From Bifidobacterium pluvialisilvae (GTDB taxonomy: Bacteria > Actinomycetota > Actinomycetes > Actinomycetales > Bifidobacteriaceae): DNA of 64,000 nt. Shown piece after piece: positions 42,690 through 55,965 of the stretch. The notes beneath the pieces are model-generated. The model was not told the DNA's origin and made no database searches. It saw only the letters and a program-made list of their open reading frames with translations. The stretch covers positions 248,001-312,000 of the forward strand of contig NZ_JAHBBI010000002.1 in NCBI RefSeq assembly GCF_019331695.1, read 5' to 3'. Made by a program: the position numbers and the translations under genes. The first letter of the stretch is position 1, and every line of letters begins with the position of its first letter.

Positions 42690-42707
42690 GTGTGATGTTT
42701 ATCACAC
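42690..42707. promoter_or_regulatory. CRP/GlxR-type operator GTGTGATGTTTATCACAC
   Basis: Perfect dyad TGTGA-N6-TCACA, extended by one pair to 18 bases. It matches the CRP and GlxR consensus exactly in both half-sites. It lies between rnhA copy three and the haem-protein gene, about 70 bases upstream of the latter's -35 box. The Crp/Fnr regulator at 23301-24035 has the matching recognition helix type. Confidence 0.75.
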
Positions 42708-42778
42708 CTATTGATTTCGGGAATGATTCTTGATATCGCGCGTACGCGAATACGGAATGCCTCTGGGAAAAACAAGAC

Positions 42779-42950: not shown

Positions 42951-45900
42951 GTGTTCTCGAACAAGAAACGTGGCGCGGCCCTCGCCTCGGTCGTCGCCCT
43001 GGCGACGCTCGGCGCAGGCCTCGTCGTGCCGGCAGCCTCCGCCGCCGACTCGACCGCCAAGACCACCAGCGACGCCACCCTGAGCTGGGGACTGAGCAAA
43101 ATCGCCACCGGTGGCGCCTGGGCCGGCGGCTGCAACTTCCTGTCCGCAGGCAAGGCCGGCAACTCCGGCGGCGGCCAGCAGCAGTGGACGGAGGACAGCC
43201 CCAAGCCCGGCTTCCAGGCCGCCGACGGCAACGTCACCATCAAGTACCCGGACGCGAACGGCGACCTGACCGTCACCCCGACCTGGGACACCAAGTGCAA
43301 GACGTCCACGGGCGCGAACGCCAGCCCGTATATGGCCGGCAAGGGCGTCTCCACCGACGGCACCGTGAACTTTGCGAAGGGCGAGGGCACGGTGGACGTT
43401 GCGGCCAACACGGCCGACATCAAGTGGACCGGCACGTTCACCGTCGCCTTCTATGGCGGTATGACCTACTGGTTCGCCTCCGACCCGGAACTTAAGGTCA
43501 ACGCCGACGGCACCGCCATGCTGACCGCCGACCTCGGCGGCTACGGCGCCGATATGACCGACCCGAACAAGTGGGTGGAGCTGCCCGTCGAACAGGACAA
43601 GACCATCGCCGAGCTGAAGAACGTGAAGGTCACGGACACCGGCTTCACCGTCACACCCGAATACGATTCCATCAAGACCACCGAAGCCCCCGATGGCGGT
43701 TCCTGGCCGCAGGACTTCGTCGACTTCCAGTCGAAGACAGGCCAGTCCTCCTACTGGTACAACTCGACCGCCGGCGACGCGAACGCGAAGGCGAAGGCCG
43801 CGACGCCCATCACCATCTCCTACACCGCGAAGGCGGCCGAGGATCCGAGCAAGGTGGGCAACGTCGGCACGCTCGCCGCCGATCCGACCACCATCGATCC
43901 GACCAAGGACCAGCAGATCACCGTCACCGGCAAGGGATACACCGGCTCCGGCGCAGCCTACGGCACCTATGTGGTCATCGCCGACAAGTCCGTCTGGGAG
44001 CCCGGCAAGGTCCCGACCGACCAGAACGCCTTCCCCATCCAGAAGTGGGTGCGTCCGAACAACGACCCGAAGGACGGCTACGCCAACCTCGACAAGGACG
44101 GCAACTGGACCCAGGTGCTCGACATCCCCGCAGGCACCCTTGACGCCTCCAAGCAGTACGTGGTCGGCACGTTCGCCGCGCACATGCTGTCCGTCACCAA
44201 CCGCAACCTCGACCACGCCGTCGACTTGACGCTCAAGGCATCCACGCCCGAGGCCACCGCGCCTGCCGCTCCCGCCAAGCCGACCGCCACCGTCGCCGGC
44301 ACCATGGCCGACCCGTACCAGGTGAAGGTCGACTGGAAGGCCCCGGCCAAGGACGGCGGCTCCGCGATCACCGGCTACACGGTGACGCTCACCCCGTCCA
44401 CCGGTGACCCGATCAGCCGGGACGTCGACGCGACCGCCACCACCGCCACGTTCGGCAAACTCACCGCGAAGAACGTCTCCTACACGGCGACCGTCGTCGC
44501 GAAGAACGCTGTCGGCGACTCCGCCGCGTCCCCGGCCTCCGACGCGGTCACGCCGAACGCCGATCCGGCCGCCACGCCGGCCATCGCCGTCGAGCCGACC
44601 GACGGCATCGATCCCGCCGCCGACACCACGTTCACCGTCAAGGGCACCGGCTTCACCGGCGGCGCCGCCTTCTACGGCGCGTACGCCGTCGTCGCCGACG
44701 CCAACGTGTGGAACGCCGGCAAGAACCCGACCTCCGCCAAGGACTTCATCGGATCGGCGTGGGTCAAGCCCGCCGACATCAAGGACGGCGCGTTCACCGC
44801 GACCGTCACCGTCAAGGCCGGCACCTTCCAGTACGGCAAGACCTACGTGGTCGGCACCACCGCCGCGCACGGCCTGTCCCTGACCGACCGTCGTCTCGAC
44901 ACCGCCCAGGCCATCACCCTCAAGGCCCAGATTCCGACCGCGCCGAGCGATGTGGCCATCACCAAGGCCGGCGACACCGACGCCAAGGTGAGCTGGAAGG
45001 CCCCTGCCGCCGGCACCTACGACTCCAAGGTCGCCAAGTACACCATCGTCGTCTCCGACAAGGACGGCAAGCAGGTCGCCACCAAGACCGTCGAGACTGC
45101 GGATGGCAAGACCGAGTACACCGCCGACTTCGCCGGCGTCGCCAAGCCCGGTTCGACGCTCAAGGCCACCGTCACCGCCATCGACGCCAACGGCCAGCAG
45201 TCCGCGGCCGTCGCCGCCGATGCCGATCTGACGATCCCGGCCGTCGCGCCCTCCGCTCCGCAGAACGTGACCGTGAAGCAGGCCGGCGCCCACGAGCTGC
45301 TCGTCAGCTGGGCCAAGCCCGCATCCGACGGCGGCAGCGCCATCACCGGCTACACCGTCACGCTCACCCCGAAGACCAAGGCCCGTGCCGCGGCCCTGAC
45401 CGCTAAGGTGGACGCGAACACCTTCCAGCACGTCTTCACCGACCTCGACCCGAGCACCGAATACACGGCGACCGTGACGGCCACCAACGCCATCGGCTCC
45501 GCCGACGCCCAGACCGCCGAAGCCGCCAAGCCCGCCGCCATCGAGCCGAAGCTTGCCTTCGCCGACGCGGACAAGAAGGCCATCACCTCGCTCACCCTGA
45601 ACACGAAGGACGAGAAGACCCTCTACGCCTTCGCCCAGGGCGAGAAGGTCGACGGCGAGAAGGTGACCTGGGAATCCTCCGACAAGACCGTCATCGCCTT
45701 CCCGGCCGAGGACTCCGCCGACGCCAACACCCCGGCGACCGCCGCCGTCGGCTACGACGAGCAGAAGGTCATCGCCGGCAAGGCCGGCAAGGCCACCATC
45801 ACCATCACGGCGACCATCGATGGCAAGGACGTCAAGGCCACCCTGCCCGTCACCGTGAAGGACCCGGCCGCCGGCAACGGCACCCACGGCAGCACCAGCA

Positions 45901-46115
45901 CCGGAGGCAACGGCCAGAACAACGGTTCCGCCAGCACCAGCGGCACCACGTCGTCCAGCGCGGGCGCCTCCGCCAAGGCCAACGGCACCGCCACGAAGTC
46001 CACCAGCCAGCTGAGCAAGACCGGCTCCGCCATCATGGGCATCGTCGCCGCGGCCGTCGTCCTGGCCGCCGGCGCAGGCATCGCGCTCGCCGCCCGTCGC
46101 CGCGCCACACGCTGA
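42951..46115 (+). CDS. Cell-surface HtaA haem-binding protein with FN3 domains
   Basis: Exported protein of 1054 residues expected to capture haem at the surface. The signal peptide (about 1-31) ends VVPAASA. One HtaA domain lies at about 38-285 (ATLSWGLSKIATGG, GTFTVAFYGGMTYWFASDPE, GQSSYWYNST). Then come a Tyr/His domain (about 300-431, GYTGSGAAYGTYVVIAD, VVGTFAAHMLS), FN3 (about 445-535), a second Tyr/His domain (about 543-661, YGAYAVVAD, VVGTTAAHGLS), two more FN3 (about 663-861) and a Big-type domain (about 867-970). A Gly/Ser/Thr linker leads to LSKTG, a membrane helix and RRR. LSKTG departs from LPxTG (Ser for Pro). The start is the GTG at 42951, with AAGGAA upstream. Confidence 0.9.
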   Translation: MFSNKKRGAALASVVALATLGAGLVVPAASAADSTAKTTSDATLSWGLSKIATGGAWAGGCNFLSAGKAGNSGGGQQQWTEDSPKPGFQAADGNVTIKYPDANGDLTVTPTWDTKCKTSTGANASPYMAGKGVSTDGTVNFAKGEGTVDVAANTADIKWTGTFTVAFYGGMTYWFASDPELKVNADGTAMLTADLGGYGADMTDPNKWVELPVEQDKTIAELKNVKVTDTGFTVTPEYDSIKTTEAPDGGSWPQDFVDFQSKTGQSSYWYNSTAGDANAKAKAATPITISYTAKAAEDPSKVGNVGTLAADPTTIDPTKDQQITVTGKGYTGSGAAYGTYVVIADKSVWEPGKVPTDQNAFPIQKWVRPNNDPKDGYANLDKDGNWTQVLDIPAGTLDASKQYVVGTFAAHMLSVTNRNLDHAVDLTLKASTPEATAPAAPAKPTATVAGTMADPYQVKVDWKAPAKDGGSAITGYTVTLTPSTGDPISRDVDATATTATFGKLTAKNVSYTATVVAKNAVGDSAASPASDAVTPNADPAATPAIAVEPTDGIDPAADTTFTVKGTGFTGGAAFYGAYAVVADANVWNAGKNPTSAKDFIGSAWVKPADIKDGAFTATVTVKAGTFQYGKTYVVGTTAAHGLSLTDRRLDTAQAITLKAQIPTAPSDVAITKAGDTDAKVSWKAPAAGTYDSKVAKYTIVVSDKDGKQVATKTVETADGKTEYTADFAGVAKPGSTLKATVTAIDANGQQSAAVAADADLTIPAVAPSAPQNVTVKQAGAHELLVSWAKPASDGGSAITGYTVTLTPKTKARAAALTAKVDANTFQHVFTDLDPSTEYTATVTATNAIGSADAQTAEAAKPAAIEPKLAFADADKKAITSLTLNTKDEKTLYAFAQGEKVDGEKVTWESSDKTVIAFPAEDSADANTPATAAVGYDEQKVIAGKAGKATITITATIDGKDVKATLPVTVKDPAAGNGTHGSTSTGGNGQNNGSASTSGTTSSSAGASAKANGTATKSTSQLSKTGSAIMGIVAAAVVLAAGAGIALAARRRATR

Positions 46116-46824
46116 ATCGCGGCGGCGGCAATGGGAGCCGACCTTTCAACGGGTTGGCTCCCCCGCGTGAGCAGGGGTGGCTGTCAGGTGAAGCTTGGCT
46201 GAGAGGGGAGCAGTTTTGTGGTGAACTCCCCTCAGTCGGCTTTGCCGACAGATCCCCTCATTCATGAGGGGAGCCAATTGGACTCGGCAACCGGCCCCCG
46301 CTGGCGAGCGGCCTTTCCGTCATCCTGAGCGAGCGGCCTTTTTGTCATCCTGAGCGAGCGTAGCGAGTCGAAGGATCTTTACCCCTCCGACCGCGACGGC
46401 GCGCCGACCACCCTCAGTCAGCTGCGCTGACGGCTCCCGCCAGCGGGAGCCGAAGATCCTTCGACTCCGTCGCTTCGCGACTTCGCTCAGGATGACAAAG
46501 CTGTGGCGTGGGCTTCGCTCAGGATGACAAAGCTGTGGCGTGGACTTCGCTCAGGATGACAAAGCTGCGGGGCGGACTTCGCTCAGGATGACAAAGCTGT
46601 GGCGCGGACTTCGCTCAGGATGACGACACCCTGCCGTGTCCCAACGGTCTTGCCCCCGCTGGCGGGGGCTGTCCGGCGTATGCCGGACTGGAGGTGGCTG
46701 TGCGTCAATCGGCCATTGGACCACCTTCAGCCACGCTCCGCGTGACGGCTTCCGCCTGCGGAAGCCAGTCGCTTATCTTGCCCCGCTTATCCGCCATCGA
46801 ATCCAACCTCAAGGAATCCGCCTC
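46116..46824. repeat. Repeat cluster between the HtaA gene and hmuT
   Basis: At about 46245-46275 a TCCCCTCATTCATGAGGGGA palindrome, sister to 3707-3732. At 46315-46380 left tips (CATCCTGAGCGAGC twice, GAGTCGAAGGATC). At 46448-46500 the facing arm, then five copies of CTTCGCTCAGGATGACAAAG at a 32-33-base step to 46625. Around 46405-46450 and 46650-46770 sit CAGCTGCGCTGACGGCTCCC and GGCTTCCGCCTGCGGAAGCC hairpins. The latter is the most likely leader hairpin of hmuT. No gene here. Confidence 0.85.
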
Positions 46825-48066
46825 ATGAACATCGGACATCTGATCGTCGATGCACGACGCCACGCGAAAGCCACGCTGGCGTCCGTTCTCGCGGTCGTGT
46901 GCCTGATGGGCATGGCCGGCTGCGCCAACATCGGCACCATCTCCGAGTCAAGCCTCGACTCCTGCGACGTGCCCGACGCATCCACCACACCCAATCCGCC
47001 GAAACTTCCCAACGTCACGCAATCCAAACTCAAGAACCCACGCGAGATCACCGGCCCCACCACCGCCTACACTCGCTCCGACCAGATCATCCCCATCTCC
47101 AACGCGCCGTTCGAACAGCAGAAGCTGCCCGTGACGGTCACCAGCTCCGACGGTCCCAAGCAGACGGTCAAGGACACCACGCGCATCCTCGCGCTCAACC
47201 AGAACGGCGGTCTTGCCGCAGCCGTCTACGCGCTCGGCTTCGGCTGCAACCTCGTCGGCCGTGACACCGCCACCGGATCCTCCGGCATGGACAAACTGCC
47301 CAAGGTCACCGTCAACGGCATGGACCTCAATGCCGAAGCCATCCTCGCGTTGGAGCCCACCGTCATCATCACCGACACCAGCATCGGCCCCTACGACGTG
47401 CAGTTGCAGCTGCGGCAGTCCGGCGTGCCGGTCGTGTTCGTGCCGCTCACCAGCAACGACGGCGTCAACGGCGTCGGCACGCAGATCCAGGCCGTCGCCG
47501 ACGCGCTCGGCGTCAGCGACCTCGGCAAACAGCTCGTCAAACGCACCAACAGCGAAATCAGCCAAACCATCCAGACCATCCAGAAAACCATGGCACCGGC
47601 CGACGTCAACCGCAAGCCACGCATCGTGTTCCTCTACGTGCGCGGCAAATCCATCTACTACTGGTTCGGCGAAGGATCGGGCGCCGACTCGCTCATCCAG
47701 TCCATCGGCGCGAACGACGTGGCCAAGGAGGTCGGGTTCAAGGGCATGGCCGCCACCAACGCCGAAGCGCTCATCAAGGCCAGCCCCGACGTCATATTCG
47801 CCATGACGCTCGGCGTGCAGTCGGCCGGCGGACTCGACGGCATGCTCGACCTGCCCGGCATCAAGGAGACGCCAGCCGGCAAGCACCGACGCGTCGTCGA
47901 CATGAGCGACTACGAGATCATGAGCTTCGGCCCGCAGACCGCGCAGGTCCTCGCGGCGCTCGCCACGGCCGTCTACGCGCCCGGCCAGGCCTACCAGCCC
48001 AAACACAAGCCGGAAGTGGTCGAACAACGATTGAACGAGATGAAACAGGAGAACGAGAACAAGTGA
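46825..48066 (+). CDS. hmuT: Haem ABC transporter substrate-binding lipoprotein
   Basis: Lipid-anchored receptor of 413 residues that hands haem (or another tetrapyrrole or siderophore) to the permease. The signal peptide ends in the lipobox LMGMAGC, so the mature protein begins at Cys33. The rest is a helical-backbone (FecB/PeripBP) fold: RILALNQNGGLAAAVYALGFG, AILALEPTVIITDTSIGPYDVQLQLRQSG, KPRIVFLYVRGKSIYYWFGEGSGADSLIQ and APDVIFAMTLGVQ-like SPDVIFAMTLGVQSAGG. The start at 46825 is supported by AAGGAA upstream. It overlaps the permease gene by 4 bases (GTGA). Haem as ligand is inferred from the HtaA neighbours. Confidence 0.92.
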   Translation: MNIGHLIVDARRHAKATLASVLAVVCLMGMAGCANIGTISESSLDSCDVPDASTTPNPPKLPNVTQSKLKNPREITGPTTAYTRSDQIIPISNAPFEQQKLPVTVTSSDGPKQTVKDTTRILALNQNGGLAAAVYALGFGCNLVGRDTATGSSGMDKLPKVTVNGMDLNAEAILALEPTVIITDTSIGPYDVQLQLRQSGVPVVFVPLTSNDGVNGVGTQIQAVADALGVSDLGKQLVKRTNSEISQTIQTIQKTMAPADVNRKPRIVFLYVRGKSIYYWFGEGSGADSLIQSIGANDVAKEVGFKGMAATNAEALIKASPDVIFAMTLGVQSAGGLDGMLDLPGIKETPAGKHRRVVDMSDYEIMSFGPQTAQVLAALATAVYAPGQAYQPKHKPEVVEQRLNEMKQENENK

Positions 48067-49235
48067 CAGGCAACGGAACCAGCGCCCCGCGCACGGCCGG
48101 CGGGACCGGCGGCATCCATACCGCCGCGGCCCGCGCCGACCAGGCGCGCAGCCGGCGCATCGCCGCCAACGCCGCCGATCTCGGCCTCGCCGGCAAGCCG
48201 CATATGGGCAGGACCACACTCACCTTCATCATCCTCATCGTCGGACTGCTCGTCATGACCGTCGTCTCGGCGTCGCTCGGCCAGCTCATCATCCCGTTCG
48301 ACCAGGTCATCGGCTCCGTGCTCAACAAGGTCGGCATCCACTGGCTCGAAGGGCCGGCCCGCGCATTCGGCAACGAGGCGTTGTGGAACGTGCGTTTCCC
48401 GCGCATCGTCATGGCCATCGTTGTCGGCGCGGCCCTCGGCGTCGCCGGCGCCGTCATGCAGGGCGTGTTCGGCAACCCTCTGGCCGAACCCGGCACCGTC
48501 GGCGTCTCCTCGGGCGCGGCGGTGGGCGCCAGCGCCTCCATCCTCATGGGGTGGACGTTCCTCGGCGCGTTCACCACGCCGTTCCTCGCATTCGTCTGCG
48601 GACTCGCCACCACCATGTCGGTGTATCTGCTGGCCCGGCGCGGCGGCCGCACCGAAATCGTCACGCTGATCCTCACCGGCGTGGCCGTCAACGCCATCGC
48701 CGGCGCGCTCATCTCGTTCTTCACGTTCGCCGCACCCACCAACGCGCGCGACCAGATCGTGTTCTGGCAGATGGGCTCGTTCAACGGCAGCCGCTGGCAG
48801 CAGGTCGCGCTCGTGGCGCCCATGTGCCTCATCGGCATCATCGGCGTGCAGTTCCTGGCCCGGCGGCTCGACCTGCTGTCGCTCGGCGAAAAGCCGGCCC
48901 GCCATCTCGGCGTGAACGTGGAACGCCTGCGCTTCTGCTCCATGCTGGCCGTGGCGCTGCTGGTCTCGTCCGCCGTCGCGTTCGCCGGCATCATCTCGTT
49001 CGTGGGTTTGGTCGTGCCGCATCTGCTGCGCATGATCATCGGACCCGGCCACCGTGTGCTGCTGCCGGCGTCCGCGCTCGGCGGCGCGCTGCTGCTCACC
49101 ATCGCCGACTTCGCCGCCCGCACGACCATCCAGTTCGCCGACCTGCCGATCGGCATGCTGACGTCGCTCGTCGGCGGTCCGTTCTTCTTCTGGCTGCTTC
49201 GCCGTAGCCGTTCCAAGTCAGGGGGTTGGGCATGA
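48063..49235 (+). CDS. hmuU: Haem/iron ABC transporter permease (FecCD type)
   Basis: Integral membrane permease of 390 residues with about nine to ten helices after a cytoplasmic, Ala/Arg-rich N-terminus of about 50. FecCD motifs are VRFPRIVMAIVVGAALGVAG, QGVFGNPLAEPGTVGVSSGAA, LILTGVAVNAIAGALISFF, WQMGSFNGSRWQQV, SLGEKPARHLGVNVERLR and GIISFVGLVVPHLLRMIIGPGHR. It starts with GTG overlapping the hmuT stop, and its stop overlaps the hmuV start, so all three are translated together. Confidence 0.95.
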   Translation: MTGNGTSAPRTAGGTGGIHTAAARADQARSRRIAANAADLGLAGKPHMGRTTLTFIILIVGLLVMTVVSASLGQLIIPFDQVIGSVLNKVGIHWLEGPARAFGNEALWNVRFPRIVMAIVVGAALGVAGAVMQGVFGNPLAEPGTVGVSSGAAVGASASILMGWTFLGAFTTPFLAFVCGLATTMSVYLLARRGGRTEIVTLILTGVAVNAIAGALISFFTFAAPTNARDQIVFWQMGSFNGSRWQQVALVAPMCLIGIIGVQFLARRLDLLSLGEKPARHLGVNVERLRFCSMLAVALLVSSAVAFAGIISFVGLVVPHLLRMIIGPGHRVLLPASALGGALLLTIADFAARTTIQFADLPIGMLTSLVGGPFFFWLLRRSRSKSGGWA

Positions 49236-50107
49236 GCGTGGCCATTCAACTGCCGTGGAACACCGTCCATCGCACGCCGCAGATGCCGAATCCCGGCGAC
49301 CTGGTGCTCCAGCTCGACGATGTGAGCGTCGAAATCGGCGAACGCCGCATTCTTTCCGACATCAGTCTGGATATCCGTGCCGGCGAGGTGCTGTCGTTGG
49401 CCGGCCCGAACGGTGCCGGCAAGTCGACGCTGCTCAACGCCATCACCGGCGACGTGCCGCTTGCCGGCGGCGATATCTCGTTGTTCGGAATGCCGGTCGC
49501 ATCGTGGGATGCGACCGAACTGGCCATGCGTCGTTCGGTGCTGTTGCAGTCGGTCGACGTGACGTTCCCGTTCAGCGTGGGCGACATCGTGCGCATGGGC
49601 CGCTCCCCGTGGGAGGGCACCGCCGAGGAGATGGACGACGATATGATCGTCGACTCCGCGATGGCGATGACCGAGGTCACGCCGCTCGCCGACCGTGTGT
49701 ATACGTCGTTGTCGGGCGGCGAACGCGGACGCGCCGCGTTCTCGCGCGTGCTCGCCCAGGCGGCGCCGATCCTGCTGCTTGACGAACCCACCGCGGCCAT
49801 GGACATCAAACATCAGGAGATGCTCATGCGCATCGGCCGCGAATACGCGGCGGCCGGATGCGCGGTCGTCGTCATCGTGCACGCGCTCGACGCGGCGGCC
49901 GCATGGTCCGATCGCGTGGCGCTGCTGGAGGCCGGTCGGCTTCGTGCCGTGGGCACGCCGGAGGAGGTGTTCACGTCGTCGACGCTCAGTGATGTCTATC
50001 AGTGCCCGATCGAGGTGCTGCCGCATCCGGCGGGCGGATTGATCATCGTGCCGAAGCGGCCGGTCGTTCGTCGCAACGTGTATGGCACGCATTGGGGGAG
50101 GGGCTGA
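49232..50107 (+). CDS. hmuV: Haem ABC transporter ATP-binding protein
   Basis: ATPase of 291 residues powering the HmuU permease. Motifs: Walker A GPNGAGKSTLLNAITGD, Q-loop LLQSVDVTFPFSVGDIVRMGR, signature LSGGERGRAAFSRVLAQ, Walker B ILLLDEPTAAMDIKHQE and H-loop VVIVHALDAAAAWSD. VIVHAL replaces the more usual THD, as in HmuV proteins. The FPFSV.DIV.MGR pattern is typical of haem (HmuV) ATPases. Its start is the ATG of an ATGA overlap. It ends overlapping the next start by one base (TGATG). Confidence 0.95.
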   Translation: MSVAIQLPWNTVHRTPQMPNPGDLVLQLDDVSVEIGERRILSDISLDIRAGEVLSLAGPNGAGKSTLLNAITGDVPLAGGDISLFGMPVASWDATELAMRRSVLLQSVDVTFPFSVGDIVRMGRSPWEGTAEEMDDDMIVDSAMAMTEVTPLADRVYTSLSGGERGRAAFSRVLAQAAPILLLDEPTAAMDIKHQEMLMRIGREYAAAGCAVVVIVHALDAAAAWSDRVALLEAGRLRAVGTPEEVFTSSTLSDVYQCPIEVLPHPAGGLIIVPKRPVVRRNVYGTHWGRG

Positions 50108-51471
50108 TGATGGGGAATATTGTCGGTGTGTTCCGTCGTTGCGTCGTCGTGATGATGACGGTCGCGTTGTCGTGCGGCGTCGTCGCGGCGATTGACGTGC
50201 TGCGTGACGTGCCGTCGACCATGGCGGCCGGCGCCCAGGTAAGCGTCAACGTCGAGGGCGGTTCCCTCAATCCGGACGGCAAGACGACCGTAGACCTGTC
50301 GGGCAGTGGATTCCAATCCGTGCAGGGCGGCTTCGGCGGCATCTACGTGCTGTTCGGCTGGGTGGACGATCCGGACGGCGGCTCGTGGAAGCCGTCGCAG
50401 GGCGGCGTCACCGGCCAGGATTACCGATACGTGCCCGACGACGAGAACAATCCCGCGGGGTACGACGTGTTCGTCGCGTTCCCCGGCGATTCGACGGCGT
50501 CGGCCGCGAACGGCGGTCAGATCGCCGCCAATGGCACATGGAACGCCAAGATCACCGTGCCCGGCGCGAAATTCACCAGCTACGACCGGTCGAACAATCC
50601 GACCGACGTCGACTGCACGGCCGTGCAATGCGGCATCATCACCATCGGCGCCCACGGCGTCGTCAACGCCAGCAACGAGACATTCACGCCATTGAGTTTC
50701 GCCGCCGCGCAGCAGTCATCGGATTCCGGGGATTCCGGAACGACGGATACGACGGCCGAATCGTCGACGTCGGATGAGGATGCGGCCGCCAAGGCCAAGG
50801 CGGCCGCGGAAGCCAAGAAGAAGGCCGCCGCCGAGGCTGCGGCGAAGAAGAAGGCCGCGGAGGAAGCGAAGAGGAAAGCGGCCTCTGCCGCCGCGCAGGA
50901 ACAGCCGCGGACGGCGGCGGAGGAGACCACCATGAGCACACAGGTTCCCACATTGGGCATCGCGGGATGGCTGATCGTCGCCGCGGTCATCATCCTCGGC
51001 ATCGCCATCATCGTGCTGGCGGCCGGCGTCGGCGGATACCTCGCCATGAAATCGGTGCTGCTCGGCGTCTCACCGGCCGCGCTCGACAAGGAGATCGCCA
51101 AACGCGAACGCAAGGCGGAGGACGTGCGTGCCCGCGAAGCCATGAAATCCGCCAAACGCAAGCGCAAACAGTATGAGCGGCTGCTCAAGGAGCAGGGGAG
51201 GGCCGACCAGGTGCAGTCCATGGTCGAGGACGCCCCGTTGCCGATTCCCAATGCGCAACGGCCTGACGCGGGAGCGCAGGCCACGCAGGTCATTCCACCG
51301 ATCGAGGCCGGCGGGGCGGCTGCGGCTGCGGCGACGGACGGCGCGGCTGCGGCGTCAACCGGGGCGGCCGTGGCTTCGGCCGGCGGCGCGGCGACGTCGG
51401 GAATCCGGGGATTCTTCACACGACACATGAACCGAACCGCGGAATCCACGGATGAGGGAGGCGAACGATGA
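50107..51471 (+). CDS. Surface protein with Tyr/His haem-locus domain, helical spacer and membrane anchor
   Basis: Exported protein of 454 residues in the haem operon. After a signal or anchor helix (about 8-30) comes one domain (about 40-205) that matches the two Tyr/His domains of the surface HtaA protein: SGSGFQSVQGGFGGIYVLFG, NGTWNAKITVPGAKF and CGIITIGAHGVVNASNETFTP. A long Ala/Lys/Glu helix follows (about 225-275, AAAKAKAAAEAKKKAAAEAA), then a membrane segment (about 285-315, GWLIVAAVIILGIAIIVLA) and a charged cytoplasmic tail with coiled-coil character (KEIAKRERKAEDVRAREAM). It could span the wall and pass haem inward, as HtaB-type proteins do in corynebacteria. The start overlaps hmuV. 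Confidence 0.85.
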   Translation: MMGNIVGVFRRCVVVMMTVALSCGVVAAIDVLRDVPSTMAAGAQVSVNVEGGSLNPDGKTTVDLSGSGFQSVQGGFGGIYVLFGWVDDPDGGSWKPSQGGVTGQDYRYVPDDENNPAGYDVFVAFPGDSTASAANGGQIAANGTWNAKITVPGAKFTSYDRSNNPTDVDCTAVQCGIITIGAHGVVNASNETFTPLSFAAAQQSSDSGDSGTTDTTAESSTSDEDAAAKAKAAAEAKKKAAAEAAAKKKAAEEAKRKAASAAAQEQPRTAAEETTMSTQVPTLGIAGWLIVAAVIILGIAIIVLAAGVGGYLAMKSVLLGVSPAALDKEIAKRERKAEDVRAREAMKSAKRKRKQYERLLKEQGRADQVQSMVEDAPLPIPNAQRPDAGAQATQVIPPIEAGGAAAAAATDGAAAASTGAAVASAGGAATSGIRGFFTRHMNRTAESTDEGGER

Positions 51472-54317
51472 GCATCACCCGCACCATACTGAAGACCATC
51501 TGCGCCGGCGCATCCATCGTGGCGGTCTGCGCCGGATCCGTCGCCGCCATCGCGCCGGCGTTCGCGGCGGACGGCGCGGCGTCATCATCATCGGCGGCGA
51601 CCAACGTCGACGACGCCATATTCGAATGGGGCGTCAACCCCGAAACCGGCGGCGGATCGTACTTCGGCGGGTGCAACGCCCTGTCCGCCGGCACCGCCGG
51701 CGACGCGGGCGGCAGTGGCGTCTGGACGGCGAACAAAACCGGCAAGGACGGCAAGACGCTCTACCGCACCGTCGACGAAACGGCCCACGCCGAAATCCTC
51801 AAACCCACATCCGACGGCACCATGAAACGGGTGAGCGGATTCGATGCACGCTGCACCAACCGCAACGGCACCTCCATCGCCGGCAAGACCTCCGGTGCGA
51901 CAATGAACGGGGAGGCGACCTATTCCGAAAACATCGTGCGGCTCTCCGGCGGCACCGGCACCATCGACGCCGCCACGAACTCGGCTCACCTCACATGGAA
52001 AGGCGCCTCGTTCACCATCGTCTACTATGGCGGCATGACCTACTGGTCCATCAGCGACCCCGTGCTCGACATCAGCAACGGCAGGGGAACGCTCACCGGC
52101 ACCGCATCCGGCTACGCCGCCGACATGAACGACGCCAGTAAATGGGAGACCCTGCCCGCGACGACCATCCACCTCGCCGACTTCACCACCGGGACGGCCA
52201 GCGGCGCCGACCCGCAGATCACGTTCGACGGCAGCAATGGAACCATCACCGCACAACCCGACTATCTCGGCGTGAAAGCCGACGCCGGGGCGAACGCCCA
52301 CGCCGGACAGGCCGACCGGAACGCCGGAAACGCCGCATGGTGGGGATCGTTCCCCGCCACATGGGTGCAGTTCAACAACGCCACCGGACAGTCATCGTAC
52401 TGGTACACGACCAGCGGCGGCACGAACACCATCCAGCCGCGCAAAGTCGCCTCGCCGATCACCATCACATGGAAGCGGACGCCGAACGTGACCGCCGGCG
52501 CGAAATCGGTCGAACGCGGCGGAACGATCACCTTCACCGGCAACGGGCCTGCCGATGCGTCATACGCCGGACGGGTTATCAGCCCTGCCGGCGAAACCGT
52601 GGCGAACAAACTGAAACCGACCGCCACGGACCCCACGACATGGCGATACGACGTACCCGCCGACGCGCTCGCCGGCACCTACACGTTCGAACTCTACGAC
52701 GAGACCGCCGGCGATGACGCGGCCGCCGTGGCACGGACGACATTCGTCGTCGGCCGGCTGCCCGGCGCGCCGACCCTCACCAGCCACGACAACGCCGGCA
52801 CCGACCGCGTCGAACTGTTCTGGACGGCACCGGGCGAGAAGGGCGATCCGAAGTTCTCCGGCTTCGTGGCCACCGCCAAGCCGAAATCCGGCGGCGAATC
52901 CGTCATCGCGTCCTTCGGCAGGAAGGAACGCAGCGGCATGATCACCGGGCTCAAGGCCGCGACCACCTACGACGTGACCATCACCGCCACGAACGCGCTC
53001 GGCCCGGGCGCCGCATCGAACGCGATGACCATCACGACCGCGGCCGGGTCCTCGTCCGGCGGCAGCTCTTCGGCTGGAGGCGTGTCGGGTTCCGGCAGCG
53101 GGTCGAGCGCCGGCGGCACGACGTACAAGAACGTCACCCTGCGCTGGGGCATCAACGACGAGACGAACTCCGCGGCCTACTACGGCGGCTGCAACTTCAT
53201 ATCCGCCGGCAAGGCGGGCAACACCGGCTCGTCGAAGACGTGGACGTCATCGTTCTACAGGGCCAAGGACGGCAACGTCACCATCGAAAAGCCGGATTCG
53301 TCCGGCAAGTGGGTCACGGCCTCGTGGAACAGCAGGTGCCTCACCCGCGACGGCGACAGCGTAAAGATGGCCAAACGCGTCGACGGCCGCTCCATCAACA
53401 CGGAATCGCAGGTGGTGCTGTCGAAGGGCTCCGGGACCGTGCAGGCCGACGGGTCGGTCGAGATCTCTTGGACGGGATCGTTCACCGTCGCCTACTACGG
53501 CGGCATGACCTACTGGAGCGTCACCGACCCCAAGCTCACCCTCGACGCCTCCGGCAACGGCGCGATCACCGCCACCGCCTCCGGATACGGCGCCGACATG
53601 AACGATGCGAGCAAATGGGTCACGCTGTCGCCCCGGACGATCCATCTGGCCGACTTCAAAGGCGTGGACGTGAAGTCGGCGGCCAGTGCGCACGGATTCA
53701 CCAAGACCCCGGAATACCTGGGCGTCGCGGTGAAGGCCAGCGGCGACCATGGCGGGCAGGCGGCGAAGGACTCGGCGAACGCCGCCTACTGGGGCTCGTT
53801 CCCGCAGTCGTTCGTCGACTTCCAGCTGGAGACCGGCCAGTCGGCGTACTGGTACACGGCCAACAGCCAGCGCGACTACGCCAAGCCGACGCTCCCGCTT
53901 TCAGTGCAGTACGACTCCTCGTTCAAGGTGAGCGCCGGGGCGGGCAGCGCGGCGGCGGCCACGGCGGCCGGCGGGTCGTCGGGTTCGTCGTCGTCCGGTC
54001 TGGGCGGTGGCGGGGCGCTGTCGCGTGGCGGTTCCTCGGCCAAGTCGTCCGCCGCGAAGAAATCCGCCGCGGCGAAGACCGACTCGTCGAAGTCCGATGA
54101 CGCCGCGGATCCGGCGGCGGCCTCCGACGACGCGGCTGCCGATTCGACCGGTGCCGGTGCCGCCGCCCCGCTCATCGCCGACAACGCGCGGACCATCGCC
54201 CTCGGTTCCGGCGGCGTTGCGGCGGCGGCCGGCCTGCCATTGGGCCTCGGCTGGTTCATCCGCCGTCGTCTCGGCCTCGACCCCTCCGCCGCCCTCGACT
54301 CCCGCCTCGGCCTGTAG
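51468..54317 (+). CDS. Two-HtaA-domain haem-binding surface protein
   Basis: Exported, membrane-anchored protein of 949 residues. The signal peptide ends about residue 33 (AAIAPAFA). HtaA domain 1 (about 43-315) has AIFEWGVNPETGGGSYFGGC, SFTIVYYGGMTYWSISDP and TGQSSYWYTTSGG. A short Ig-like piece and an FN3 domain follow (about 320-525). A Gly/Ser linker leads to HtaA domain 2 (about 545-815: VTLRWGINDETNSAAYYGGC, SFTVAYYGGMTYWSVTDP, GQSAYWYTANS). The end has an acidic, Ala-rich linker, one membrane helix (about 905-928) and RRR. The conserved Tyr in YGGMTYW is the likely haem ligand region. Its start overlaps the preceding stop (ATGA). Confidence 0.9.
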   Translation: MSITRTILKTICAGASIVAVCAGSVAAIAPAFAADGAASSSSAATNVDDAIFEWGVNPETGGGSYFGGCNALSAGTAGDAGGSGVWTANKTGKDGKTLYRTVDETAHAEILKPTSDGTMKRVSGFDARCTNRNGTSIAGKTSGATMNGEATYSENIVRLSGGTGTIDAATNSAHLTWKGASFTIVYYGGMTYWSISDPVLDISNGRGTLTGTASGYAADMNDASKWETLPATTIHLADFTTGTASGADPQITFDGSNGTITAQPDYLGVKADAGANAHAGQADRNAGNAAWWGSFPATWVQFNNATGQSSYWYTTSGGTNTIQPRKVASPITITWKRTPNVTAGAKSVERGGTITFTGNGPADASYAGRVISPAGETVANKLKPTATDPTTWRYDVPADALAGTYTFELYDETAGDDAAAVARTTFVVGRLPGAPTLTSHDNAGTDRVELFWTAPGEKGDPKFSGFVATAKPKSGGESVIASFGRKERSGMITGLKAATTYDVTITATNALGPGAASNAMTITTAAGSSSGGSSSAGGVSGSGSGSSAGGTTYKNVTLRWGINDETNSAAYYGGCNFISAGKAGNTGSSKTWTSSFYRAKDGNVTIEKPDSSGKWVTASWNSRCLTRDGDSVKMAKRVDGRSINTESQVVLSKGSGTVQADGSVEISWTGSFTVAYYGGMTYWSVTDPKLTLDASGNGAITATASGYGADMNDASKWVTLSPRTIHLADFKGVDVKSAASAHGFTKTPEYLGVAVKASGDHGGQAAKDSANAAYWGSFPQSFVDFQLETGQSAYWYTANSQRDYAKPTLPLSVQYDSSFKVSAGAGSAAAATAAGGSSGSSSSGLGGGGALSRGGSSAKSSAAKKSAAAKTDSSKSDDAADPAAASDDAAADSTGAGAAAPLIADNARTIALGSGGVAAAAGLPLGLGWFIRRRLGLDPSAALDSRLGL

Positions 54318-54339: not shown

Positions 54340-54645
54340 GAGCCAAACCGCACCGTACGGCTCCTTTCCGTTGCGGCGCAACGAACAACCAGGAACCGAG
54401 CACCCCGCGCGGTTCCTGGTTGTCAGGTGGGGCACGACGCTTGGGAACCGCACCGCGCCTATGGTTCCCGTTCGTTGGGATGAGTGCGATGAATGGGAAT
54501 CGTATGAGGCCGCCCGTTCCCGTTGGTTGCACACGGAGCAACACACGGGAACCGTCGCACCGTTCCCGTTCCCATTCGTTGTATTCCCCGCAACAAACAG
54601 GAATCCGCGAATGTCTTCCGGTTCCCGTCGGTTGCGGTACGGCTA
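54340..54645. repeat. GGTTCCCATCCGT palindrome array after the haem operon
   Basis: About six units, for example GGTTCCCGTTCGTTGGGATG facing CGATGAATGGGAATCG (about 54464-54503), and CGTTCCCGTTGGTTGC facing GCAACACACGGGAACCG (about 54517-54552). CCAGGAACCG and CGGTTCCTGG at 54389-54422 form a separate stem. The array ends at the stop of the next gene. Confidence 0.85.
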
Positions 54646-55602
54646 CCGGCATCGACGTAGTGGCACTCCCGCATCGAGCAGTTTCTTGCGCAGACGTTCC
54701 GGATACAGCGCATCCTCATATTCCAGACGAACGATTCGGCGAACCCTCCCGGACCGTAGCGCCGTCTCCCTCTCCCGCTCGGCGTATACACGCTCCCGGA
54801 TTCCCTGCCGCGTACCGTCCTCCAGCACGTATTTCCCCATGCCGTCGAATTCCGCCACGATGATGGTTCCGTCGGGCATCTCCCAGGAGAAGTCGGCGCG
54901 GAACGGGGCATCCGGATTCCGGGGATTGCGGAACGGCCGTTGCAGACGTGGAATCATGAACCCCAGTTCGATGATTACCGCACGTACCATCGATTCCCCA
55001 CCGTTCTCGCTCAACGAATCGGCGTATTCGCAAAGCCGGACGATACGGGCCGTGTCCATGCCGAGACCGCGGCAATATTCGAGAACCTTCGTCAGCACTG
55101 TCCCCTGACGTGCCGCGGAATCGAAGAACGGCAACGCTTCGATGAAGGAGTACGCCATCGCGCAGTCCGTCAGCGTCCGATTGATGTCGGTGACAGTCAG
55201 TGACGACCGCTGCACGGAATCCACGGTCGGCATGTATATTCGTCTGAGTTTTCTGTATTGGTGTTTTGTCGGCGGGAACGTGCTGGCAATGGTAATCATT
55301 TTGTCATCGTGCAGCGAGTACCCGTGATCGAGCCCATGTGCGCAGGCTGCCGTCAATCCGGCGAAAACCCACGAGGGATGTTGCAGCGCCAACGCCTTGG
55401 CGACGTGCATATGCCGTTCGATCGGGGTCAATGCGTTCCAGTAGGGGAAACGCGCATACAGATTTCTGTATGGCGATACGAGAAGTCCCGCCTTGCGTCG
55501 CCGCAAAAGCGCCTTTCTCTGCAGCTCGGTGCGCCCTGCCGCGCATCGGTTGTCGTGTTCCGCTTCGTCGAGGAGACGTTCCGTCGGTGCATGTGTTCTC
55601 AT
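54643..55602 (-). CDS. AbiEi-like protein with DUF559/PD-(D/E)XK-type C-terminus
   Basis: Protein of 319 residues. The first 100 or so resemble the winged-helix part of type IV toxin-antitoxin antitoxins (AbiEi): RKALLRRRKAGLLVSPYRNL, LTPIERHMHVAKALALQHPSWVFAGLTAACAHGL. The C-terminal third (GESMVRAVIIELGF, FRADFSWEMPDGTIIVAEFD, ALRSGRVRRIVRLEYEDAL) has the E...D...E.D pattern of the DUF559 nuclease-like fold. There is no AbiEii toxin neighbour, so it is not a full system here. The start at 55602 is chosen because the frame upstream crosses a palindrome array. Such orphan proteins are common and variable in bifidobacteria. Function unproven. Confidence 0.75.
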   Translation of the reverse strand: MRTHAPTERLLDEAEHDNRCAAGRTELQRKALLRRRKAGLLVSPYRNLYARFPYWNALTPIERHMHVAKALALQHPSWVFAGLTAACAHGLDHGYSLHDDKMITIASTFPPTKHQYRKLRRIYMPTVDSVQRSSLTVTDINRTLTDCAMAYSFIEALPFFDSAARQGTVLTKVLEYCRGLGMDTARIVRLCEYADSLSENGGESMVRAVIIELGFMIPRLQRPFRNPRNPDAPFRADFSWEMPDGTIIVAEFDGMGKYVLEDGTRQGIRERVYAERERETALRSGRVRRIVRLEYEDALYPERLRKKLLDAGVPLRRCR

Positions 55603-55965
55603 ATCACGGACGGTAGTGCGGGTGGGAATCCGAAGACAATGTTTTGGGGGAATGTTAGCGGATGGACCACCCCTGATGCGGTTTGTGGATAACCGGTTCC
55701 GTTTGCCCTGCGCGTCGCCTTGGCTCAACGGATGGGAACCGGAGGGCCGACACGGTTCCTGTCGGTTATGGAACATGTGACGAACGGGAACCGGAAACGT
55801 GTCTAGTTTCCTGTTCGTCGTATACATTCGACGGATGGGAACGGTGATGGTTGTACGGTTCCTGTTGGTTGTGCGACCGCGACGGATGGGAACCGGGAAC
55901 GGGGCACGATTCCCATCCGTTATGGTCTACGCGACGGATGGGAACCGAGCGGATTCGTGCGAATA
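55603..55965. repeat. GGTTCCCATCCGT palindrome array upstream of the AbiEi-like gene
   Basis: Units at about 55753-55795 (GGTTCCTGTCGGTT / GACGAACGGGAACC), 55803-55843 (TTTCCTGTTCGTCGTATAC / CGACGGATGGGAAC), 55857-55893 (GGTTCCTGTTGGTTG / GACGGATGGGAACC) and 55909-55945 (GATTCCCATCCGTT / GACGGATGGGAACC). Immediately 5' of the gene, about 55605-55720 shows no clear feature beyond the promoter it must hold. Confidence 0.85.

Follow-up and report, generated by a model that had tools for sequence, protein, structure and literature searches.

The closest described counterpart of the locus presented here is the Corynebacterium hmuTUV–htaA/htaB system (C. diphtheriae, C. glutamicum). In the accessible part of the report on C. 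glutamicum HmuT (PMC4926363), the haem iron is held by His141 and Tyr240, with Arg242 supporting the tyrosine, and an H141A variant still binds haem via Tyr240. An actinobacterial hmuTUV is also described outside Corynebacterium, in Leucobacter; the accessible part of that report (PMC6868719) presents it without htaABC and with a haem oxygenase homologue and efeUOB. Here, we describe a six-gene hmu locus (+ strand, 42951–54317; HtaS1, HmuT, HmuU, HmuV, Surf2 and HtaS2) in the 2.66-Mb genome of Bifidobacterium pluvialisilvae, contained in a 64-kb window, i.e. the whole stretch of DNA that was analysed. Like the Corynebacterium system, it combines an HmuTUV importer, HtaA-fold surface proteins and an HmuT with a Tyr-Arg pair. 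We regard it as a real, conserved and divergent haem-uptake operon that probably works in haem capture and import, as a variant of the actinomycete HmuTUV/HtaA kind.

By its sequence, HmuTUV is a haem-type ATP-binding cassette (ABC) importer. The ATPase HmuV (49232–50107) passed the cut-off of the haem ABC ATPase model NF010068 (286.7 vs 261 bits) and stayed below that of the corrinoid ATPase model (226.6 vs 537 bits). HmuT (46825–48066), a haem-type substrate-binding lipoprotein with a lipobox, is most similar, among proteins of solved structure, to HmuT of C. glutamicum (E about 1e-52), the siderophore-type relative 6b2x being much weaker (E 3.7e-4), and the axial Tyr and its Arg partner (Tyr271 and Arg273 in the window) were kept in 19 of 19 aligned rows. 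The permease HmuU (48063–49235) belongs to the FecCD family (PF01032, E 5.7e-95). The haem-type uptake locus in Bifidobacterium that the initial annotation had proposed is supported. IsdE of NEAT-type systems uses a Met haem ligand, and its model likewise matched HmuT (E 2e-12), albeit far under the cut-off (46.9 vs 298.65), and the Pfam matches included no NEAT domain.

The arrangement first reported for the locus, with the last five genes overlapping by 1–4 bases, was confirmed: from HmuT to HtaS2 the overlaps measure 4, 4, 1 and 4 bases (GTGA, ATGA at the HmuU/HmuV junction, TGATG and ATGA). HmuT was present in 12 of 189 Bifidobacteriaceae genomes, with 77–96% identity outside the source genome; its nearest named relatives are those of B. 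saimiriisciurei and B. primatium (96%) and B. catulorum (92%), and primates are the known source of most carriers. All six genes recur in unchanged order in the 11 other carrier loci of Bifidobacterium, and hmuTUV is the best-kept part of the locus when compared with B. saimiriisciurei (about 83–96% per 300-base bin). The complete gene order was also found in two metagenome-assembled genomes (MAGs) labelled Actinomyces sp. and Actinomycetales, and hmuTUV with Surf2 on two 5-kb Brevibacterium contigs. In the midpoint-rooted HmuT tree, the bifidobacteria (97/94) are joined first by the two MAGs (92/93) and then by Brevibacterium (100/99). Hence, the label 'corynebacterial-type' given to the locus earlier is correct only in part: the nearest HmuT relatives outside the bifidobacteria lie elsewhere, and the layout of hmuT-U-V, a neocarzinostatin-fold protein and an HtaA/HbpA-like protein was found again in other actinomycete families.

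The surface proteins carry domains that resemble the C. diphtheriae haemoglobin receptor HbpA in fold and at family level. HtaS1 (42951–46115) comprises a signal peptide, an HbpA/HtaA-like receptor domain (43062–43841), two neocarzinostatin-like repeats, fn3 domains and an LSKTG sortase-type anchor (46011–46025), while HtaS2 (51468–54317) consists of a signal peptide, two HbpA/HtaA-like domains (51591–52475 and 53115–53969), fn3, a transmembrane helix and a conserved RRRLGLDP tail. The best solved match of these domains was HbpA (9bcj, 9bch), and the beta-sandwich fold of CR domains is kept in the structure predicted for HtaS2 domain 2, the one modelled of the three window domains. Profile scores were borderline: PF04213 gave 27.5 and 22.5 bits (cut-off 24), on the three window domains alone 21 bits for one and no match for two, and with E up to 0.1 it matched 8 of the 29 domains in alignment A2, which excludes those of B. 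saimiriisciurei as well as B. catulorum HtaS2 domain 1. No HtaA was found by PDB searches with profile A2 or with domain 2 alone, nor by hmmscan of the whole proteins; the link to HtaA emerged once the predicted fold was searched, the profile was widened to A6 and hhalign was applied. Compared with HbpA of C. diphtheriae, the domains described here sit in an hmu operon, on large anchored proteins, and have relatives in other actinomycete families.

What had been called a second surface protein does exist, as Surf2 (50107–51471), but needs correction to a membrane-anchored protein with a domain of predicted neocarzinostatin fold (50221–50703; conserved His at 50653–50655), followed by an Ala/Lys linker, a transmembrane helix and a basic tail. 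The fold assignment comes from structure prediction and fold search; searching the PDB by Surf2 profile returned no neocarzinostatin, and the domain scored below both curated cut-offs (PF00960, 12.3 vs 25 bits; NF040680, 20.8 vs 86 bits). Unlike neocarzinostatin and the enediyne apoproteins that these models describe, Surf2 is anchored in the membrane and tied to haem uptake, and it adds a component to those of the Corynebacterium system. The two HtaS1 repeats (43863–44246 and 44583–44936) were linked to Surf2 by hhalign only (E 9e-7, probability 91%), and NCBIfam did not recognise them as chromoproteins. Alignment A4 holds 24 of 27 Surf2 domains, with B. primatium, B. callimiconis and B. stellenboschense left out. 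The domain adjoined hmuTUV in all 12 other actinomycete regions retrieved, out of 17 other genomes with Surf2. In three of these regions tblastn gave no HtaA-like match (L068, a 5-kb contig identical to a B. luteolum contig, L078 and L079), although L078 does have a PF04213 match.

Most likely, then, a divergent variant of the known system would capture and import haem, for which haemoglobin may be a source. In such a scheme, the exposed HbpA/HtaA-like domains of sortase-anchored HtaS1 and membrane-anchored HtaS2 would take haem, perhaps out of a haemoprotein such as host haemoglobin; HtaS1 and Surf2 might carry or relay it through their neocarzinostatin-fold domains to HmuT, where the iron would be held by Tyr271, with Arg273 behind it and Met166 or water on the opposite side; and HmuUV would import the haem, with iron as the presumed benefit.

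Several observations weigh against this reading. The position of C. glutamicum His141 (residue 166 of the window's HmuT, 47320–47322) is Met in all 11 bifidobacterial HmuT rows of alignment A1, which left out the 96% identical B. primatium sequence of the 12; in the 19-row set it is Met in both bifidobacteria, Thr in both MAGs and His in the 15 others. Since the H141A protein of C. glutamicum keeps haem via its tyrosine, haem binding by HmuT is still plausible, albeit with changed chemistry. Among the HtaA-like domains, all 29 of A2 and 18 of 19 A6 rows have Tyr in place of the helper His of the Corynebacterium protein (GH; H434 in C. glutamicum); a conserved Tyr aligns there in the profile alignment from which this placement is taken, and hhalign shifts the stretch by some residues. 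ChtA likewise uses a helper Tyr. The likely axial-Tyr position (SxxxY in helix 1) is occupied by Tyr in 21 of the 29 domains, by Trp in 5, including HtaS1 of the window, and by Phe in 3; this helix lies outside the hhalign sequence alignments. With HbpA as best match in addition, the earlier statement that HtaA domains bind haem does not simply transfer to these proteins. As to haemoglobin, HtaA and ChtA of C. diphtheriae have CR domains that in isolation do not bind it, according to the accessible part of one report (PMC12494546). Moreover, many other actinomycetes share the subfamily found here, and host haemoglobin should therefore not be assumed to be its general ligand. Finally, the top-scoring models of HmuU were those of BtuC, all below cut-off, and in contrast to the Corynebacterium system no exact TTAGGN5CCTAA site, which we take as the DtxR-like motif, was found in the 64-kb window.

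The fate of imported haem adds to these points. Among the 189 Bifidobacteriaceae genomes, haem oxygenase (PF01126) and DyP_N (PF04261) were found in none, ABM (PF03992) in 12, catalase (PF00199) in 32 and cytochrome bd subunit I (PF01654) in 50, and none of these families occurred in the 12 hmu carriers (catalase, p 0.22; cytochrome bd subunit I, Fisher p 0.04, kinship uncorrected). The search comprised these five families. The lack of a haem oxygenase, noted in the initial annotation for the window, extends in the case of PF01126 to the family and sets the locus apart from the Corynebacterium system, and the genome search for haem oxygenase or haem enzymes suggested there came back empty for these five families in all carriers. 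The annotation's premise that bifidobacteria make no respiratory use of haem is not general, given the cytochrome bd and catalase counts. Because both are missing from every carrier, supplying these enzymes, a role also considered there, is an unlikely purpose. Two candidates were rejected: haem-enzyme supply, as cytochrome bd subunit I, catalase and DyP_N do not accompany the locus, and haem breakdown by PF01126 or PF03992, neither of which any carrier possesses.

The lost HmuT and HtaA histidines, the BtuC-leaning scores of HmuU, below cut-off, and the absence of the five haem-enzyme families searched could all be accommodated by an importer for another tetrapyrrole (a corrinoid, coproporphyrin, or a porphyrin with zinc or no metal), in which case the ligand residues would have changed along with the substrate. 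We consider this unlikely, given that HmuV passes the haem and fails the corrinoid cut-off, that the iron-coordinating Tyr of HmuT and its Arg partner are invariant and that the partner proteins have the HtaA/HbpA fold.

The HtaS1 N-terminal receptor domain falls into three types, with 66–99% identity within and 35–47% between types. The type found in the window is unlike that of its nearest relatives (38–39% identity to B. primatium and B. saimiriisciurei), whereas the remainder of HtaS1 is 79–80% identical to theirs. In B. catulorum (L014) and B. aesculapii (L017), which the genome collection assigns to separate genera (g1 and g5), 902 bases over the HtaS1 N-domain are 97.9% identical, compared with about 81% over hmuTUV. 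This is best read as a swap between species of the outward-facing domain of HtaS1 alone, which in B. catulorum and B. aesculapii would be recent. Such exchange, as seen in host-facing proteins, together with the size and fn3-bearing, multi-domain build of the anchored proteins and the absence of the two haem-degrading families from the carriers, would suit surface proteins that act mainly outside the cell, whether by sequestering or detoxifying haem or by attaching to host proteins that bear it, while import plays a minor part. Yet hmuU, hmuV, Surf2 and HtaS2 are chained to hmuT by overlaps, and hmuTUV is the very stretch that is best conserved against B. saimiriisciurei, making this alternative rather improbable. 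It is very improbable that the locus imports siderophores or ferric iron and that its surface partners have the HtaA fold but do not bind haem: FecCD permeases are common to siderophore importers and HmuU matches such models, below cut-off, but the gap between 6b2x and the haem-binding relatives of HmuT and the HtaA/HbpA partners themselves speak against it. That the locus is a decaying remnant, as the loss of model-system ligand residues and the few carriers in the family might suggest, was already disfavoured and is scarcely credible with six open frames recognisable in 11 of 11 relatives and with the Tyr, the Arg and Met166 of HmuT unchanged across all 11 rows.

Upstream of HtaS1 lies the palindrome TGTGATGTTTATCACA (42691–42706, no strand assigned), a TGTGAN6TCACA box that we take to be a CRP/FNR- or Rex-like operator, and directly after it a candidate promoter, TTGATT-17-TATCGC (42711–42739, + strand; −35/−10 labels taken from alignment). 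One exact TGTGAN6TCACA was present upstream of HtaS1 in 11 of the 12 loci, at a distance of 260 to 651 bases from the start used; in the twelfth, the contig has only 255 bp upstream of HtaS1. The box is the sole match in the window, where 0.017 exact matches are expected from single-base shuffles, and none of the ten relatives' regions with the box contains a second exact site. If one mismatch is tolerated, the number in the window is unremarkable (1 vs 1.40 expected), so the argument rests on exactness and conservation. The box was not found in the MAG, Brevibacterium or other actinomycete regions. Genome-wide, the source genome has nine TGTGAN6TCACA sites and B. primatium ten, with none of the reversed pattern in either. 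Eight of the nine source-genome sites were retrieved as loci, with neighbours named except at L132, L134 and L142; apart from the box at HtaS1, sites of this genome precede a malic-enzyme-type gene, a sodium/solute symporter, acetate kinase and an adhE-type gene. The sites look like a redox or carbon regulon of Rex or CRP/GlxR type, between which the motif does not discriminate. An identical TGTGACCGCTATCACA site, beside genes without assignment, was seen in the source genome and B. primatium (L134 and L139, position 1501).

Taken together in its most specific form, the picture would be one of commensal bifidobacteria with haemoglobin-receptor-based import, a conserved-His neocarzinostatin-fold shuttle passing haem to a Tyr/Met HmuT, a receptor domain traded between species, and redox or carbon rather than iron control; in this full form we offer it only tentatively, as a doubtful possibility. 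If haem import holds, some bifidobacteria, usually thought haem-independent, would be competitors for haem from host or diet, and the parts they use would depart from textbook haem uptake. Three questions follow: whether a Tyr/Met HmuT binds haem, whether HbpA-like domains of a commensal bind haemoglobin, and whether the neocarzinostatin fold serves as a haem carrier. The last reaches past bifidobacteria because the domain adjoins hmuTUV in other actinomycete families, and the fold could then be a general, unrecognised haem carrier of actinomycetes. In the openly accessible literature, largely without full texts, no account of an hmu/HtaA-type locus in bifidobacteria was found, nor one of the locus when neocarzinostatin was searched with HtaA or heme; the kinds of parts are known, while nothing was found there on how they are combined here, on the altered ligand sites, on a neocarzinostatin-fold component or on an exchange of the receptor.

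As to the surroundings of the operon, the gap between HtaS1 and hmuT (46116–46824) contains tandem 32-bp units of the GACTTCGCTCAGGATGACAAAGCTGTGGCG type and inverted copies of TCATCCTGAGCGA. On the retrieved stretches, a flanking pgm was present in 9 of the 11 relatives, and 8 had an RNase H-like gene; B. psychraerophilum lacks both, and B. aesculapii is represented by a short contig. On the − strand, 54643–55827 encodes a protein of 393 residues that matched nothing in Pfam at E up to 0.01 and whose relatives flank the hmu locus on either side, depending on the species, as if mobile. Directly 3′ of the hmu operon in the Actinomycetales MAG (L046:17306–20751) lie cydD- and cydC-like genes, CydC scoring above its cut-off and CydD being the best model but below its own, and an ABC exporter also follows the operon in L045.
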